The notes: generated by a model from the sequence alone, not told the origin. A DNA stretch of 42,197 nt from Candidatus Levyibacteriota bacterium (GCA_018061075.1 JAGOUW010000006.1:1-42197); one strand, 5' to 3'. Counted from the stretch's first letter, positions 2,802-36,376 are shown. A program made the numbers and translations.

Positions 2802-3550
2802 GGCCAGATTGTTTTTTTTACTTTTTCTGTGATTTCGAGAGGATTGTCCGATTGCCAGATATTTCGTCCAACTGCCATTCCTATGCAACCTGAGCTCATT
2901 GCCGTCTGGACAGTTTCCAGGAATGATCCTTCATCTTCTTTAGCGCCTCCTGAAATTACAACTCCAGTTTTTCCTGCGTTACTTACTGCCCATCTTAAGC
3001 TTTTCTCATCCCCTGGATATTTTATTTTTATTATGTCAGCGCCCATTTCAAGTCCAAGTCTTGCAGCGTATGCTGTTAACTCTCTAATGTCTTTTCCCTC
3101 AGCCCCGCTTCCTTTTATATACATCCAGCCTATAAATGGAATCCCAGCTTTGTGTGCTTCTTGTTCGATTTTACTAAATTCCTTAAACATTTTTGATTCA
3201 TGGCGGCTTCCAACATAAATCGTATATCCTACAGCTGAAGCGCCAATTCTTAGCGCTTCTTCGACTGAGCAAATTTGAGGAGAATATGGATCAGGATCTG
3301 TGTTTAAATTAGTTTTTCCGTTAAGTTTTATAATTAACGGCACTGTCGCTTCATATTCCTTTTTATAGTATTGTTCAGCAACTCCTTTTTGAAAAATAAT
3401 TCCCGTAAAGCCACCTTTTAGTCCGATTTTAATTATATTTTCCGGATCTGCATTTTCATCGTCAAAGTCAGATGGGCCATGTTCCATCCCCTGGTCGTAT
3501 GCTAGGAAAAGAGCCTTTCCATCTCGAGTTATTTTACTTAAATCTGTCAT
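2798..3550 (-). CDS. Class I fructose-bisphosphate aldolase, DhnA/archaeal type
   Basis: The 250-residue protein is a Schiff-base aldolase of the DhnA/FbaB family, which cleaves or forms fructose 1,6-bisphosphate. LAYDQGMEHGPSDF near residues 16-29 is the family hallmark. ADIIKIKYPGD at 171-181 carries the Schiff-base lysine, Lys175 by my recalled alignment to the archaeal (Thermoproteus) enzyme. ISGGAKEDEGSFL and GMAVGRNIWQ form the phosphate site. The start ATG overlaps the kinase stop by 4 bases and the stop overlaps rpiB by 4 bases. No Shine-Dalgarno is evident, consistent with translational coupling. Some relatives act as 2-amino-3,7-dideoxy-D-threo-hept-6-ulosonate synthases, but the neighbours favour the glycolytic role. 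Confidence 0.9.
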   Translation of the reverse strand: MTDLSKITRDGKALFLAYDQGMEHGPSDFDDENADPENIIKIGLKGGFTGIIFQKGVAEQYYKKEYEATVPLIIKLNGKTNLNTDPDPYSPQICSVEEALRIGASAVGYTIYVGSRHESKMFKEFSKIEQEAHKAGIPFIGWMYIKGSGAEGKDIRELTAYAARLGLEMGADIIKIKYPGDEKSLRWAVSNAGKTGVVISGGAKEDEGSFLETVQTAMSSGCIGMAVGRNIWQSDNPLEITEKVKKTIWP

Positions 3551-31159: not shown

Positions 31160-32821
31160 ATGAAAAAGTGGGACCTACAAAGTGAAATAAAATTTGACGA
31201 AAATAAGTTTGAACCTCAAGAATTAATTAACGTTTTACTTGAAAACCGGGAGATTAAAACCAAAAAAGAAATTGATAACTTCTTAGATCCGAAGCTTGAT
31301 GATCTAGATATTAATTTACTCGGAATAAATAAAAATGATCTCACGAAAACTTTAAAGAGAATTAAGGGAGCGATTGGAAAAAAAGATCTAATAATTATTT
31401 TTGGAGATTATGATGCCGATGGAATAACTGGCGCTGCTATTCTTTGGGAGTCATTAAATGAATTAGGTGCAAATGTAATGCCGTATATTCCTAACAGAAT
31501 AACTGAGGGTTATGGCCTTTCAAAAAAGGGCGTAGAGGGGATGATGGCAAGATATCCGGATACAAAAATGGTTGTAACTGTGGACAATGGAATTGTCGCA
31601 TTTGAAGGGGTGGATTCTGCGAATAGTTTGGGACTAGATGTAATTATTACCGACCATCATGTCAGGGCACAAAAATTACCAAACGCTTTTTCAATCGTTC
31701 ATTCAACTAAAGTTTGCGGCTCTGCAGTAGGGTGGTTTTTATCAAGATTTTTAGAGGAAAAAATAAAAGGAAAAATCGACTTAAAAAAACATTTGGATTT
31801 AGTAACGATTGCGACTATTGCTGATTTAGTTCCATTAACAGAGCAAAGTCGAATCTTGGTAAAGTTTGGTTTGAAATATTTAAGAGAAACTAAAAGAGTT
31901 GGTTTGCTTTCTCTCTTTGAAGAAGCAGCGCTAGATCCCGAAAAAATAGGTACTTATGAAATTGGACATATTATTGCGCCCAGACTTAATGCCATGGGGA
32001 GACTCGAAGAGGGGATGGATAGCTTGCGACTTCTTTGCACAAAAGACGAAAAGAAAGCAAAAAATTTAGCAAGGACGATTGGAGAGACAAATAGAAATAG
32101 GCAGCAAATAACAGCTGAAACTGTCGATCATGCAAAAGATGCTGCATCAGGGAAAATTTCTAAAAAATTATTATTTGTTTATCATGAAAGTTATCAGCCA
32201 GGTGTAATAGGTTTGGTGGCAGGGCGACTTACAGAGGAATATTATTTGCCGTCAATTGTTTTGTCGAAAGGAGAAGAGTTTAGTAAAGCATCCGCTCGTT
32301 CTGTATCAGGTTTGAATATCATCGAATTCATAAGAGAAGCATCTGAATTTTTGGTTGATGCCGGAGGACACCCTATGGCAGCAGGTTTTACGGTAGAAAC
32401 AAAAAAACTGGAGCTTCTAGAGAAAAAACTTGAAGAGCTCGCAGAAAAATTAATTTCAAAAGAACATTTAATTCGGAAATTAAAAATTGATTGTGAGTTA
32501 TCGATTGGGCTAGTTAATTTGGATTTGTTTGGAGAATTATTAAAACTTGAACCATTTGGAATGAAAAACCCATCTCCAGTTTTTTTAAGTAAAAGTTTAG
32601 TTATTGAAAGTTTGCGTTTTGTCGGAAAAGAAAGTAAACACGTTAAGATAGAATTTAAAAAAGATAAAACTATAATTGGCGGAATCTTATTTAACTATGA
32701 TAAAAGTTTGGATTTAAAAATAGGAGACAATGTAGATGTCGTTTATTCGATTGAGTTAAACGAATGGAATGGAAATAAAAAAATTGAGCTGAAAATTAGA
32801 GATATAAAAAAGGCAGATTAA
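31160..32821 (+). CDS. recJ: Single-stranded-DNA-specific 5'-3' exonuclease RecJ
   Basis: RecJ degrades single-stranded DNA in recombination and mismatch repair. The 553-residue protein has the DHH-family motifs: FGDYDADGITG with DYDADG at 83-88, VTVDNG near 139-144, and TDHH with Asp165-His166-His167. A second domain has GGHPMAAGF (DHHA1), and a C-terminal OB-fold segment closes the protein. Length is normal for RecJ. Its 3' end overlaps the convergent minus-strand gene by 4 bases; it diverges from cca. Confidence 0.95.
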   Translation: MKKWDLQSEIKFDENKFEPQELINVLLENREIKTKKEIDNFLDPKLDDLDINLLGINKNDLTKTLKRIKGAIGKKDLIIIFGDYDADGITGAAILWESLNELGANVMPYIPNRITEGYGLSKKGVEGMMARYPDTKMVVTVDNGIVAFEGVDSANSLGLDVIITDHHVRAQKLPNAFSIVHSTKVCGSAVGWFLSRFLEEKIKGKIDLKKHLDLVTIATIADLVPLTEQSRILVKFGLKYLRETKRVGLLSLFEEAALDPEKIGTYEIGHIIAPRLNAMGRLEEGMDSLRLLCTKDEKKAKNLARTIGETNRNRQQITAETVDHAKDAASGKISKKLLFVYHESYQPGVIGLVAGRLTEEYYLPSIVLSKGEEFSKASARSVSGLNIIEFIREASEFLVDAGGHPMAAGFTVETKKLELLEKKLEELAEKLISKEHLIRKLKIDCELSIGLVNLDLFGELLKLEPFGMKNPSPVFLSKSLVIESLRFVGKESKHVKIEFKKDKTIIGGILFNYDKSLDLKIGDNVDVVYSIELNEWNGNKKIELKIRDIKKAD

Positions 32822-34551
32822 ATAAACCCTGCTCTTTTGGAAGCTCTATGAGTAGAAACTAGCATGTCGTGAACTTCGTCTGCTGTTCCGTATGGCTCAA
32901 CTACTTTCTTATTATAAATTTCATCTGGAACATGATGTGTGTATATTCTACCTGACCCAAACCATCTTCTTATAGCGTATTCACCGTGTCCTGTTCTGTC
33001 CCTAAGTTTATAATCTGCATCCGTTTGAAGTGTATGGATCATAACCTCATAATTTTCTCCATCAAATTGTAATCTAACTTTCAGTACGCGCATATCAGGA
33101 TCACTCACAGGGTTTAGCGTATCTCTTGTTGTGGATCCATCAAGATTATCTTCAACATCATAAATTTCTATTTGTTTTCCAGATTTTCTAGAAGCTTCTC
33201 TTATTCTGTCTAGTAGCTTCCTAGCCTGACCTACGTTTCTTGCAATTAATATCGCTCCCTGGTCATCTTTTATAATTTTTTCTGGATCCATTTCTCCTGT
33301 TCGCATCATTTTTATAAATATTGAATCATCATCTTTTATGCCTCTATCTGTAATATGGGCTTGAATAGATTGACCGCGAAATGTTGTTGTTCTAACAGGC
33401 AAGGTGTGGATTCTTACTTTGTTGTTTTTAGGGTTTTGATTGTTTGAGTCTCTTTTTTTTCTTTCTTCAGCAAACTGATCGTTGGGGAATTCTCTTACTT
33501 CAACAACGCTATAGTCATCCTTATCTGTAGTGTCATGTACGGTGGCATAAGTGATGGTTGCATCGGATCCGCCTTCCCATACATTGTCGATAAGGAAATT
33601 AACAAATGTTGTTCTTTCTCCTTCAACGGATTTTGACCTATTCACGCTTTGAGCATTATTTAATGCTTCTTGAATAACCTTGTTTTTTTCTCTCCATGCG
33701 AAAATATTCCTGCGGAGCTTCATAGAGTGAAGTTTTAAACCAGCACGATACTTAACCTCTGGGTCTTCACTCGTGAAAATTGATTCAATTAAGCTTAATA
33801 TGTCATCTCTTTCTTTGACATCTTCTGGCAAGTCGATGACATCTCCAATACCACTTAATACTCCACCATTTTGTCTAGTTTTGGCCCAAAAATTATCTGC
33901 TTGCTGTGCAAATTCTCTAATTATTCCTGCGGGCCATTGTGTTTCATAGTCATATGGAATTCCTGCGTTATCTAAGAACATTTCATTAATTCTTTTTCTT
34001 AATGCAGATCGTTCAGCGCCTGTCATGGTTCTAAATTTTTCAAAAATTTCACCAGTTGTTTTTACATCCATATAGCTTTTTATTTCCCCTAGAGTTGATC
34101 TAACTTCCTGTACATGCATTCTAAACTCAGTTCTAAGTGGTGCGTTTGTTCTTAATCTTCTTCTTTCTTGTCTTATAGCATCTCTTCTTTCCTCTACTGT
34201 TGCTGCTACCTTAGGATTCTTTATATCTTTTTTGGGTGGTACTACGGGAAGTTCGACCATTGATTCAGATATTCGTCTAATATATCTAACAGCATGCCCA
34301 ATGGTAGGCATTGGATTTGGATCTTTTTCAGGATTAAAAACGTCAACTGGATGTGGTTCTCCGGTTAATAATGATACTGGGAAAACATCTTGTCTTAAGA
34401 AATGAAAATTATGTACAGGATTTGGTTTTGAGGTAGGACCTGTAGGTGTGGGATCTGCAACCGCAGGTGTTCCTTCACTCTTATTTTGTCGAGTGGTAAT
34501 AGTTGTGCCTGCATCTTTTATTATTTCAGTTTTTATTGCTTCAGGTGGCAT
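32818..34551 (-). CDS. Uncharacterised protein with RelA/SpoT-like C-terminal domain
   Basis: The 577-residue soluble protein has a Pro/Thr-rich N-terminus (1-50), a short motif LRQDVFPVSLLTGEPHPVD at 52-70 shared with the neighbouring small protein, a charged helical middle (about 100-320) and a C-terminal domain at about 405-535. There, SIFIKMM near 410-416, DDQGAILIA near 429-437, a helix GQARKLLDRI, YEVMIHT near 501-507 and GHGEYAIRRW at 521-530 recall the synthetase fold of RelA/SpoT (SIxxKM, DxxGxRI, ExQIRT, HxxYK). The usual D.R..R nucleotide motif is altered, so activity is uncertain. No signal peptide or membrane helix. Function is unknown; the RelA/SpoT similarity is by eye. Confidence 0.65.
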   Translation of the reverse strand: MPPEAIKTEIIKDAGTTITTRQNKSEGTPAVADPTPTGPTSKPNPVHNFHFLRQDVFPVSLLTGEPHPVDVFNPEKDPNPMPTIGHAVRYIRRISESMVELPVVPPKKDIKNPKVAATVEERRDAIRQERRRLRTNAPLRTEFRMHVQEVRSTLGEIKSYMDVKTTGEIFEKFRTMTGAERSALRKRINEMFLDNAGIPYDYETQWPAGIIREFAQQADNFWAKTRQNGGVLSGIGDVIDLPEDVKERDDILSLIESIFTSEDPEVKYRAGLKLHSMKLRRNIFAWREKNKVIQEALNNAQSVNRSKSVEGERTTFVNFLIDNVWEGGSDATITYATVHDTTDKDDYSVVEVREFPNDQFAEERKKRDSNNQNPKNNKVRIHTLPVRTTTFRGQSIQAHITDRGIKDDDSIFIKMMRTGEMDPEKIIKDDQGAILIARNVGQARKLLDRIREASRKSGKQIEIYDVEDNLDGSTTRDTLNPVSDPDMRVLKVRLQFDGENYEVMIHTLQTDADYKLRDRTGHGEYAIRRWFGSGRIYTHHVPDEIYNKKVVEPYGTADEVHDMLVSTHRASKRAGFI

Positions 34552-34560
34552 AGTTGGGTG

Positions 34561-34590
34561 ATTCTAGCATAGCTTATAGTAGTATGTCAA
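34561..34590 (-). promoter_or_regulatory. Promoter of the RelA/SpoT-like gene, near-leaderless
   Basis: On the minus strand TTGACA (34590-34585) and TAGAAT (34566-34561) are separated by 18 bases. The -10 ends 9 bases before the ATG at 34551, so a leader of at most three bases is predicted. The box lies 18 bases downstream of the preceding gene's stop, giving this gene its own promoter. Confidence 0.6.
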
Positions 34591-34607
34591 TCAAAACTGA
34601 GGCTAAA

Positions 34608-34886
34608 TTATCCGTTAGGTTTTATTTCAGGAGCTTGCTGTAGGCCTTGAGGTGTTAGTCCATGTCTAAATTCATCTCCTCGAACATCTTTAGCAAGATC
34701 CGATGCTAATGCATGTGGAACTAATGCTGTTCCTTCAGGAAGTAACTCTATTCCAGGAATTTGACGTTCTTGAACATGTTTGACGGGTATAACCCCAATT
34801 GGAGTTGGTTCGCCAGCTAATAGAGCAACATAAGGACCCATATCTTTTTCAAGATCTCCATAAAATCCTTCGTGTGATCTTTTCAT
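34608..34886 (-). CDS. Uncharacterised small protein with GEP motif
   Basis: The 92-residue soluble protein contains LEKDMGPYVALLAGEPTPIG at 12-31, followed by VIPVKHVQERQIPGIELLPEG. The segment aligns, with one gap, to residues 52-70 of the larger downstream protein (LRQDVFPVSLLTGEPHP). The rest is polar, with a Gly/Pro/Gln-rich end, and has no transmembrane segment or Cys. No family recognised. It has a consensus leaderless promoter of its own, divergent from aspS, and lies directly before the RelA/SpoT-like gene. Confidence 0.65.
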   Translation of the reverse strand: MKRSHEGFYGDLEKDMGPYVALLAGEPTPIGVIPVKHVQERQIPGIELLPEGTALVPHALASDLAKDVRGDEFRHGLTPQGLQQAPEIKPNG

Positions 34887-34894
34887 TGCTCGCT

Positions 34895-34923
34895 AGTATA
34901 TAATTCTGAATGCTTATTGTCAA
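34895..34923 (-). promoter_or_regulatory. Consensus promoter of the 92-residue protein, shares -35 with aspS
   Basis: On the minus strand TTGACA (34923-34918) and TATACT (34900-34895) are separated by exactly 17 bases. The -10 ends 8 bases before the ATG at 34886. The -35 bases also form the plus-strand TTGTCA of the aspS promoter. Confidence 0.65.
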
Positions 34924-34945
34924 TTTACGCACAAAAATATACAAT
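34917..34945 (+). promoter_or_regulatory. Promoter of aspS, leaderless geometry
   Basis: TTGTCA (34917-34922) and TACAAT (34940-34945) are 17 bases apart. The predicted start site is the ATG at 34952, which fixes the aspS start and argues against the in-frame ATG at 34910, upstream of the promoter's transcript. Confidence 0.65.
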
Positions 34946-34951
34946 ACGGTT

Positions 34952-36376
34952 ATGCAAAGAACGCTTATAAAAGACACTGTAAATAAGGTTGGGGAAGAAG
35001 TTTTGATTCAAGGATGGGTAGATATAAGACGGGATCATGGGAAATTAATCTTCTTAGATCTTCGAGATAGGTCAGGAAAAATCCAAGCAGTAGTTATACC
35101 AAGCAGTTCTCCAGAGGCTCACACAAAAGCCGGGGAATTAAGGCCAGAATTTGTAGTAGAAATTACTGGAAAAATTAATGCTAGACCTGAGAGAAATGTA
35201 AATAAAGATCTTTTAACTGGCACCGTAGAGCTAGAAGTTTTGGGTGTAAAAATTCTTAATAAGGCGGAAACTCCACCTTTTGATGTTACAAGTGATGGGC
35301 TAGATATTAACGAAGAGGTTCGTTTGAAATATAGATATTTAGATCTCAGACGCCCAAGAATGCAGGACAATATCAGACTTAGAAGTGACTATATGCAGGC
35401 ACTTCGTGGGGCACTCGTTAAAAAAGATTTTGTAGAAATTGAAACTCCAATTCTCTCTAAAGCCACAATGGAAGGAGCGAGAGATTTTATAGTGCCATCT
35501 CGTTTTCAGCCAGGTAAATTTTATGCACTTCCACAGAGTCCACAGCAGTACAAGCAGCTTCTAATGGTAGCCGGATTTGAAAGATATTTTCAATTTCCGC
35601 ATTGTTTACGCGATGAAGATTTAAGAGCTGATAGAGGATTCGAACACACACAGTTAGACTTGGAAATGAGTTTTGTAAATCGGGAGGACGTTATGTCTAC
35701 CGTTGAAGAAGTTGTGAAAGAGGGAGTTTTAGCAGTTGGCGGAAAATTAAAAGACGAAACATTTCCTGTTGTTTCATATAAAGAAGCAATGGAAAAATAT
35801 GGAGCTGATAAGTTTGATTTGCGCTCCGATGAAGATAAGAAAAATGGAGTATTAGCTTTTGCATGGGTCACAGATTTTCCTTTCTTTAGAAAAACAAGCA
35901 CTACGGAAGCATCAGATAAATTTGATAGCAAGAGTGGATGGACATTTACTCATAATCCATTTAGTATGCCGATTCCAGAGCATTTAGATTGGTTAATGAA
36001 GGGCGAAAATATTGATCAAATCACAACTACTCAATATGATTTGGTTTGCAATGGCTTAGAAGCAGGCGGAGGAAGTATCAGAGCCCATACTCCTGAAATT
36101 TTGAGAGCCACGTATAAGATAATGGGCTATACGGATGCACAGATTGAGGAAAGTGTCGGGCACATGATCGAAGCATTTTCATTTGGTGCACCTCCTCATG
36201 GAGGAATAGCTTTAGGGCTCGATCGTCACATAGCACTTCTCAGGGGAGAAGCATCCATAAAGGAAGCAATGGCATTTCCAATGACTTCAACTGGAAGAAC
36301 TTCCGTTATGGACGCTCCAGCTGCTATTTCAGAAGAACAGCTTAAGGAATTAGGAATTAAAATTGTCACAAAGTAA
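34952..36376 (+). CDS. aspS: Aspartyl-tRNA synthetase, compact form without GAD domain
   Basis: The 474-residue enzyme charges tRNA-Asp (possibly also tRNA-Asn). It has the N-terminal OB-fold anticodon-binding domain (GWVDIRRDHGKLIFLDLRD at 21-39), motif 1 with ETPIL near 154, motif 2 with FQFPHCLRDEDLRADRGFEH at 203-222, and motif 3 GIALGLDRHIALLRGE near the end. After YGADKFDLR at 263-271 the sequence passes directly to LAFAWVTDFPFF, so the GAD insertion of about 110 residues present in typical bacterial AspRS (about 590 residues) is missing. Motif 2 and the OB domain are bacterial in type. The ATG at 34952 is chosen from the promoter position and family N-terminus. Confidence 0.96.
   Translation: MQRTLIKDTVNKVGEEVLIQGWVDIRRDHGKLIFLDLRDRSGKIQAVVIPSSSPEAHTKAGELRPEFVVEITGKINARPERNVNKDLLTGTVELEVLGVKILNKAETPPFDVTSDGLDINEEVRLKYRYLDLRRPRMQDNIRLRSDYMQALRGALVKKDFVEIETPILSKATMEGARDFIVPSRFQPGKFYALPQSPQQYKQLLMVAGFERYFQFPHCLRDEDLRADRGFEHTQLDLEMSFVNREDVMSTVEEVVKEGVLAVGGKLKDETFPVVSYKEAMEKYGADKFDLRSDEDKKNGVLAFAWVTDFPFFRKTSTTEASDKFDSKSGWTFTHNPFSMPIPEHLDWLMKGENIDQITTTQYDLVCNGLEAGGGSIRAHTPEILRATYKIMGYTDAQIEESVGHMIEAFSFGAPPHGGIALGLDRHIALLRGEASIKEAMAFPMTSTGRTSVMDAPAAISEEQLKELGIKIVTK

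Follow-up and report, generated by a model that had tools for sequence, protein, structure and literature searches.

The RSH (RelA/SpoT-type) superfamily comprises central and heavily studied bacterial signaling enzymes. For SaRelP and FaRel2, the roles of individual residues in binding the ATP triphosphate and the metal have been described (PMC5794853; PMC11782079). The donor site of SaRelP contains R78, K80, S84, K88, and R91 (PMC5794853), which we use below as equivalents of a motif running from R403 to R417 in the protein studied here, and a G-loop tyrosine is called critical for the binding of guanosine nucleotides by (p)ppGpp synthetases (PMC5794853). We analyzed gene X, which encodes a divergent relative of these enzymes in a 42,197-nucleotide stretch of DNA from Candidatus Levyibacteriota bacterium (GCA_018061075.1 JAGOUW010000006.1:1-42197; hereafter the window). 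The X family is still nameless in Pfam and NCBIfam, neither of which has a model for it, no description of it emerged from a limited literature search, and it appears to be undescribed.

Gene X, its neighbors, and its domains

An earlier note on this DNA had proposed a RelA/SpoT-like protein, and the gene bears that description out: the ORF is intact and starts with ATG, the motifs quoted in the note are present, and the invariant residues and RSH spacings hold (Table 1). The stop codons of X and of the convergent recJ homolog overlap tail to tail. A minus-strand ORF of 92 amino acids (34608–34886), which is without a family match, separates X from aspS; by eye, this ORF and the disordered N-terminus of X have an LLxGEPxP-like string in common. 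In AlphaFold2 models, the elements of the SYN domain follow the order β1-α-β2-α-β3-(G-loop)-β4-β5-α-α.

Table 1. Coordinates of gene X, its neighbors, and its predicted domains and motifs in the window
Feature	Coordinates	Strand	Basis
Gene X in full, encoding a divergent RSH-like protein of 577 aa	32818..34551	-	Intact ORF and homologs
recJ homolog, convergent neighbor of X	31160..32821	+	Product named by eye from sequence
aspS homolog (aspartyl-tRNA synthetase), divergent neighbor of X	34910..36376	+	Named by eye
RSH synthetase-like (SYN) domain, residues ~385–551	32899..33399	-	AlphaFold2 models, Foldseek, profile A6
Donor ATP-phosphate motif R403-x2-K406-x3-S410-x3-K414-x2-R417	33301..33345	-	Homolog alignment; SaRelP equivalents
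D429, predicted to bind Mg (D107 in SaRelP), with I434 in place of the D+5 Arg	33265..33267	-	Alignment
G-loop, S483 to M487 (acceptor-base Tyr position)	33091..33105	-	Unguided MAFFT alignment
E502 in YEVMIHT, matching the EIQIRT Glu and predicted as the second metal/catalytic residue	33046..33048	-	Alignment
N-terminal all-helical domain, residues ~113–324	33580..34215	-	AlphaFold2 models and conservation in alignments
Family-specific β region linking helical and SYN domains, residues ~330–384	33400..33564	-	DSSP of models
N-terminal extension, probably disordered, residues 1–105	34237..34551	-	Low pLDDT, alignment gaps

The C-terminal domain is of the RSH synthetase type

The X family is homologous to RSH synthetases, and residues ~385–551 of X constitute a divergent RSH synthetase-type domain. 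Searched alone, the window protein gave no match above chance in Pfam, NCBIfam, PADLOC, PHROGs, or the PDB, and did not match the RelA_SpoT profile PF04607. This profile matched 3 of 28 family members at E<1. One member (L008 of genome G024) scored 29.4 bits (E 5.5e-7) in a genome search, where the curated cut-off is 27, and 26.6 bits, slightly below that cut-off, when searched as a protein. PF04607 also matched the C-terminal domains of two distant relatives, L186 (over positions 6–93, E 4e-5) and L187 (E 2.9e-4), both of which had been retrieved by the family profile through their N-terminal domains. When a profile built from 26 SYN domains of X relatives (profile A6) was run against all PDB sequences, the top five matches were all RSH proteins (YwaC at 3.3e-4, CapRel twice, Mtb Rel, and 3l9d).

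AlphaFold2 models of the window protein (pLDDT 76.7) and of a Thiothrix homolog (pLDDT 90.2) both show the RSH strand order, and the predicted SYN fold is present, with a five-stranded sheet and the G-loop between β3 and β4. In Foldseek searches of the PDB, RSH chains alone occupied ranks 1–18 in one search and ranks 1–35 in the other, mostly with probabilities of 0.8–1.0; weaker matches to TdT and PAP were also returned. The best Foldseek E-value was ~2e-3, with none below 1e-3, and whole-length TM-scores against RSH proteins were low; our claim of RSH homology therefore rests on the agreement of these lines together with the residue map described below. Comparison of the X family with long RSH proteins by hhalign scored 20.4 at full length (decoys up to 27.7) and 22.8 for the SYN domain alone (decoys up to 27.2), and because neither score exceeded the decoys, both were left out of the evidence for homology. 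Thus, with regard to the profile or structural match to the RSH fold on which the earlier note had staked its proposal, RSH synthetases are matched by both profile and models.

Donor-site residues are kept and acceptor-site residues are replaced

The residue map was derived from an unguided MAFFT alignment of 34 diverse family domains and 8 canonical RSH proteins. Residues that are invariant in alignments of 8, 28, and 40 homologs include R403, K406, K414, D429, S483, E502, R529, and P542. Among the 34 diverse homologs, the basic residues corresponding to those that bind ATP, whose conservation the earlier note had proposed to check, are kept in 27 (R403), 32 (K406), 32 (K414), and 29 (R417) cases, with equivalents in 8/8 RSH proteins. 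S410, K414, and R417 lie 4, 8, and 11 residues after K406, the same spacing as that of K80, S84, K88, and R91 in SaRelP (PMC5794853). The D429 column is Asp in all 34 domains. The Glu of YEVMIHT, also singled out in the note, falls in the column of the catalytic EIQIRT Glu; this column (E502) contains Glu in 33 domains and Asp in one. A His matching the RSH AHW motif is found in 27 of the 34.

Just 2 of the 34 relatives have the second adenine-stacking Arg (D+5), which is I434 in the window protein. The column of the RSH G-loop Tyr is occupied by Y (9), T (9), F (5), L (5), V (3), I (2), or M (1), with M487 in the window protein, and the column of the PKPNGY Lys is Ser in 29/34 relatives (S483 in the window protein). 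Bridging members (L143–L147, L186–L188) and canonical RSH proteins were used to place the Tyr column; an assignment in which the conserved GSS Ser took the place of the Tyr was dropped, as the Tyr column is four residues further on, at M487. Replacement in the X branch thus affects both the Tyr that holds the acceptor base and the second Arg that stacks on adenine. By these conservation counts in 34 relatives and 8 RSH proteins, the X family combines a donor half like that of RSH with a remodeled acceptor half, and the remodeling goes furthest in the window protein and in the proteobacterial group. The statement that the D.R..R motif is not conserved needs one qualification: the basic R..K...S...K..R residues are kept, and the loss concerns the second adenine-stacking Arg in D..G.R and the G-loop Tyr. 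That the donor and metal residues persist at such high divergence argues that nucleotide chemistry or binding has been under selection.

The N-terminal region

The 400 residues preceding the synthetase-type domain, which had been called unfamiliar, consist of ~105 probably disordered residues found in this protein only, followed by the helical domain and the short β region. In the AlphaFold2 model of the window protein, residues 1–105 have pLDDT values mostly below 50, and gaps in the alignments show that this extension is missing or much shorter in other family members. The helical domain (~210 residues) and the β region are common to the whole family, whose members are ~440 aa long. Most members carry the helical-domain motif RFEAxRKLxLM, which is degenerate in the window protein (KYRAGLKLHSM).

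Homology of the N-terminal domain to HD hydrolases was not detected by hhalign (score 14.8, with decoys up to 19.6), and no conserved HD/His motif was seen in this domain in the family alignments. With an hhalign score below those of decoys, HD-domain ancestry was dropped for want of sequence support. Foldseek alignments of the X models extend over both the HD and SYN regions of RSH chains, and a distant structural relationship between the N-terminal domain in these models and the HD region is possible.

Distribution of the family and the recJ–aspS interval

Homologs of X with 18–28% identity were found in 7 of 59 sampled relatives, and a profile search across 82 genomes of the window's order found X in 10, the window's own included. 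X lies between recJ and aspS in 8 of these 10 (the window, L002–L005, L008, L017, and L018). A homolog from another family of the same class (L149) also occupies the recJ–aspS slot, and one further homolog (L150) adjoins recJ. This interval (window 32818–34910; L020–L059) is a variable slot in the order, which in many other genomes contains ORFs of ~70–470 aa, usually on the minus strand and without detectable similarity to X; one of these (L040) resembles a methyltransferase by eye. Upstream of the X homolog in L003 is a 123-aa ORF (2947–3315, minus strand) whose product, judged by eye, resembles DNA-binding proteins of the sigma-70 region 4 type.

Scanning 84,980 named genomes with one single peptide pattern, which leaves the count incomplete, gave at least 73 X loci. 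These included two records named Levybacteria, whose family also contains the window's assembly, other Patescibacteria, and many Desulfobulbales; further hosts were Thiothrix/Thiofilum, Thiobacillus, Gallionellaceae, and others. Of 116 sampled Desulfobulbales genomes (the order of G498), 90 carry X, nearly always in a single copy. Phage, plasmid, and viral-contig collections contained no X homologs at the sensitivity used. In a tree of the family, the Levybacteria branches are very long.

One subfamily (L143–L147, ~830 aa; for example L144:1075–3534) combines an X-type domain with a C-terminal Nudix domain, whose score exceeds the Pfam cut-off in L144, L145, and L146 but not in L147. This fusion points to nucleotide chemistry. 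Between the two domains lies a stretch with weak similarity to phosphoribosyltransferases. The G-loop Tyr is kept in all five of these proteins and in L186. Canonical RSH was found in 0 of 37 genomes of the window's Levybacteria-type family (G000–G036); PF04607 is present in 100 of 145 sampled Patescibacteria.

Nitrogen-fixation genes near X

We counted nitrogen-fixation neighbors within 8 kb of X at 63 loci outside the Patescibacteria. A nif, PII, Amt, or modA gene lies within this range at 32 loci and directly adjacent to X at 16, and the order nifA-X-nifV occurs at 10. One NifA representative scored above the NCBIfam equivalog cut-off; NifV was the best match of the NifV representative, yet below the NCBIfam cut-off. 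In Desulfobulbales, nifH was detected in 68/90 X-positive genomes compared to 11/26 X-negative genomes (Fisher p=0.003), figures that ignore shared ancestry and genome incompleteness and for which the X-negative genomes with nifH were counted by hand. Counted by hand, 12 genomes of this order have X and nifH ~15 kb or less apart, compared to ~0.6 expected when kinship and genome incompleteness are ignored. The conserved nif gene order around X may partly reflect shared ancestry. At several loci (L073:4844–5578, L075, L078, L083, L090, L119, and L131), a class-I glutamine amidotransferase gene is beside or near X, in several cases by PII and Amt genes.

A nifH match is absent from 22/90 X-positive Desulfobulbales genomes, so that we reject a strict dependence of X on nitrogenase, and from about 16/50 X-positive genomes. 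Patescibacteria and several nifH-negative hosts showed no nif linkage of X. Nitrogen fixation is not known in Patescibacteria.

Possible activities of X

Our leading reading, to which we assign a probability of roughly 0.6, is that X represents a divergent branch of the RSH superfamily that joins a helical regulatory N-terminal domain to a domain of pyrophosphokinase fold with an altered acceptor. X is most likely an ATP-dependent pyrophosphokinase. Such an enzyme would bind Mg-ATP as the pyrophosphate donor and pass the pyrophosphate on to an acceptor bound without the customary Tyr–guanine stacking, and this acceptor would thus not be GDP or GTP, or would be so only inefficiently. The helical domain may sense a ligand or partner and gate the activity. 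The presence of nif, PII, and Amt genes around X in sulfur bacteria suggests that X could signal nitrogen or energy status there, and because the relatives in these bacteria often lie among nif genes, X may produce or detect a nucleotide-type signal of another kind. In Levybacteria, X would be the only RSH-type enzyme seen, as canonical RSH was not found in the 37 genomes of that family. That X makes or binds an alarmone-like nucleotide, as the earlier note suggested, is possible and close to this leading idea. We regard as tentative, and probably not correct in all its parts, the proposal that X forms a new class of RSH-derived pyrophosphokinases with an unknown signal or a non-guanosine acceptor, linking nitrogen or energy status to the regulation of nitrogenase in sulfur bacteria, and that the gene for X was exchanged with Levybacteria.

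Loss of the D+5 Arg and the G-loop Tyr could instead mean that catalysis has been lost, which counts against the leading reading. Its main rival is a pseudo-enzyme sensor that no longer transfers pyrophosphate, takes ATP/ADP or an alarmone as a ligand, and reports energy or nitrogen status through the helical domain. Absence of both residues from most members while the phosphate-binding residues stay would suit such a protein, as would the neighboring PII and Amt, which are ligand-sensing nitrogen-control proteins. A mere binder, however, need not keep both predicted metal acids (D429 in 34/34 domains, E502 in 33/34), and the Nudix-fused subfamily retains the G-loop Tyr; we consider loss of transfer rather unlikely. 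X might instead be a bona fide alarmone synthetase, producing (p)ppGpp or a (p)ppApp-type nucleotide through a remodeled pocket and replacing long RSH in Levybacteria. Such a replacement would fit the contrast between 0/37 genomes with canonical RSH in the window's family and 100/145 among sampled Patescibacteria, and some relatives (L143–L147, L186) keep the Tyr. We find it improbable, however, as the patchy occurrence of X in the order (10/82 genomes) means that it is no general replacement for long RSH, and the window protein and the nif-linked members are without the Tyr that is critical for guanosine nucleotide binding (PMC5794853).

That X is a toxSAS-like toxin or defense effector acting on tRNA or ATP, a type that the earlier note had offered as an alternative, now seems very unlikely. 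The closest PDB sequence matches of the family are indeed CapRel and YwaC, and the Levybacterial genes sit in the variable recJ–aspS slot. However, X has no conserved antitoxin-sized partner in the loci examined, no PADLOC match, and, at the sensitivity used, no phage, plasmid, or viral-contig homolog; it also occurs in 90 of the 116 sampled Desulfobulbales genomes, of which hardly any have more than one copy, and it has nif neighborhoods. No conserved small upstream ORF that might be an antitoxin was found in the Patescibacteria loci examined, and outside the Patescibacteria the neighbors of X are varied or are nif genes; similar small upstream ORFs look antisense to aspS and were rejected as toxin–antitoxin partners. 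Least probable of all, and hardly credible, is that X is another enzyme of nucleotidyltransferase fold (similar to poly(A) polymerase or TdT), or that it is unrelated to RSH and resembles it by coincidence. The weaker Foldseek matches to TdT and PAP and the lack of a Pfam match for the window protein leave some room for it, but RSH proteins take all top places in structure and profile searches, and the RSH-specific motif spacing and the G-loop column align without guidance.

The family combines a kept ATP-donor half with a changed acceptor half and repeated linkage to nifA, nifV, PII, and Amt, and this pattern of active site and gene context makes X a candidate, open to direct testing, for novel nucleotide signaling in nitrogen fixation. 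X also bears on stringent-type signaling in Levybacteria, which are apparently without RelA/SpoT.

Comparison with known systems

By its SYN domain, X belongs to the same superfamily as the subgroups into which Atkinson et al., 2011 (PMC3153485) divide RSH proteins; a keyword search of that paper gave no match to the helical N-domain family or to the nif context. Long RSH proteins (Rel, RelA, SpoT), which combine HD, SYN, and TGS/ACT domains, resemble X in having a helical N-terminal region before the SYN domain. Unlike them, X is without sequence support for an HD hydrolase and without TGS/ACT, and its profile comparison with them does not rise above decoys. The toxSAS enzymes CapRel and FaRel2, which are tRNA-CCA pyrophosphokinases, share the SYN fold and donor residues with X, and CapRel ranks second in the PDB profile search with the X family. 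X has no visible antitoxin or pZFD domain, however, its gene context differs from theirs, and it lacks counterparts of both G-loop Y128 and R95, on which FaRel2 depends. RelP/YwaC (SAS2) and RelQ are like X in SYN fold, in the R.K...S...K..R donor spacing, and in the metal D/E residues, and YwaC is the best PDB sequence match to the family profile. Compared to these small synthetases, X carries a large helical N-terminal domain and is without the D+5 Arg, most members are without the G-loop Tyr, and Ser replaces the Lys of PKPNGY.
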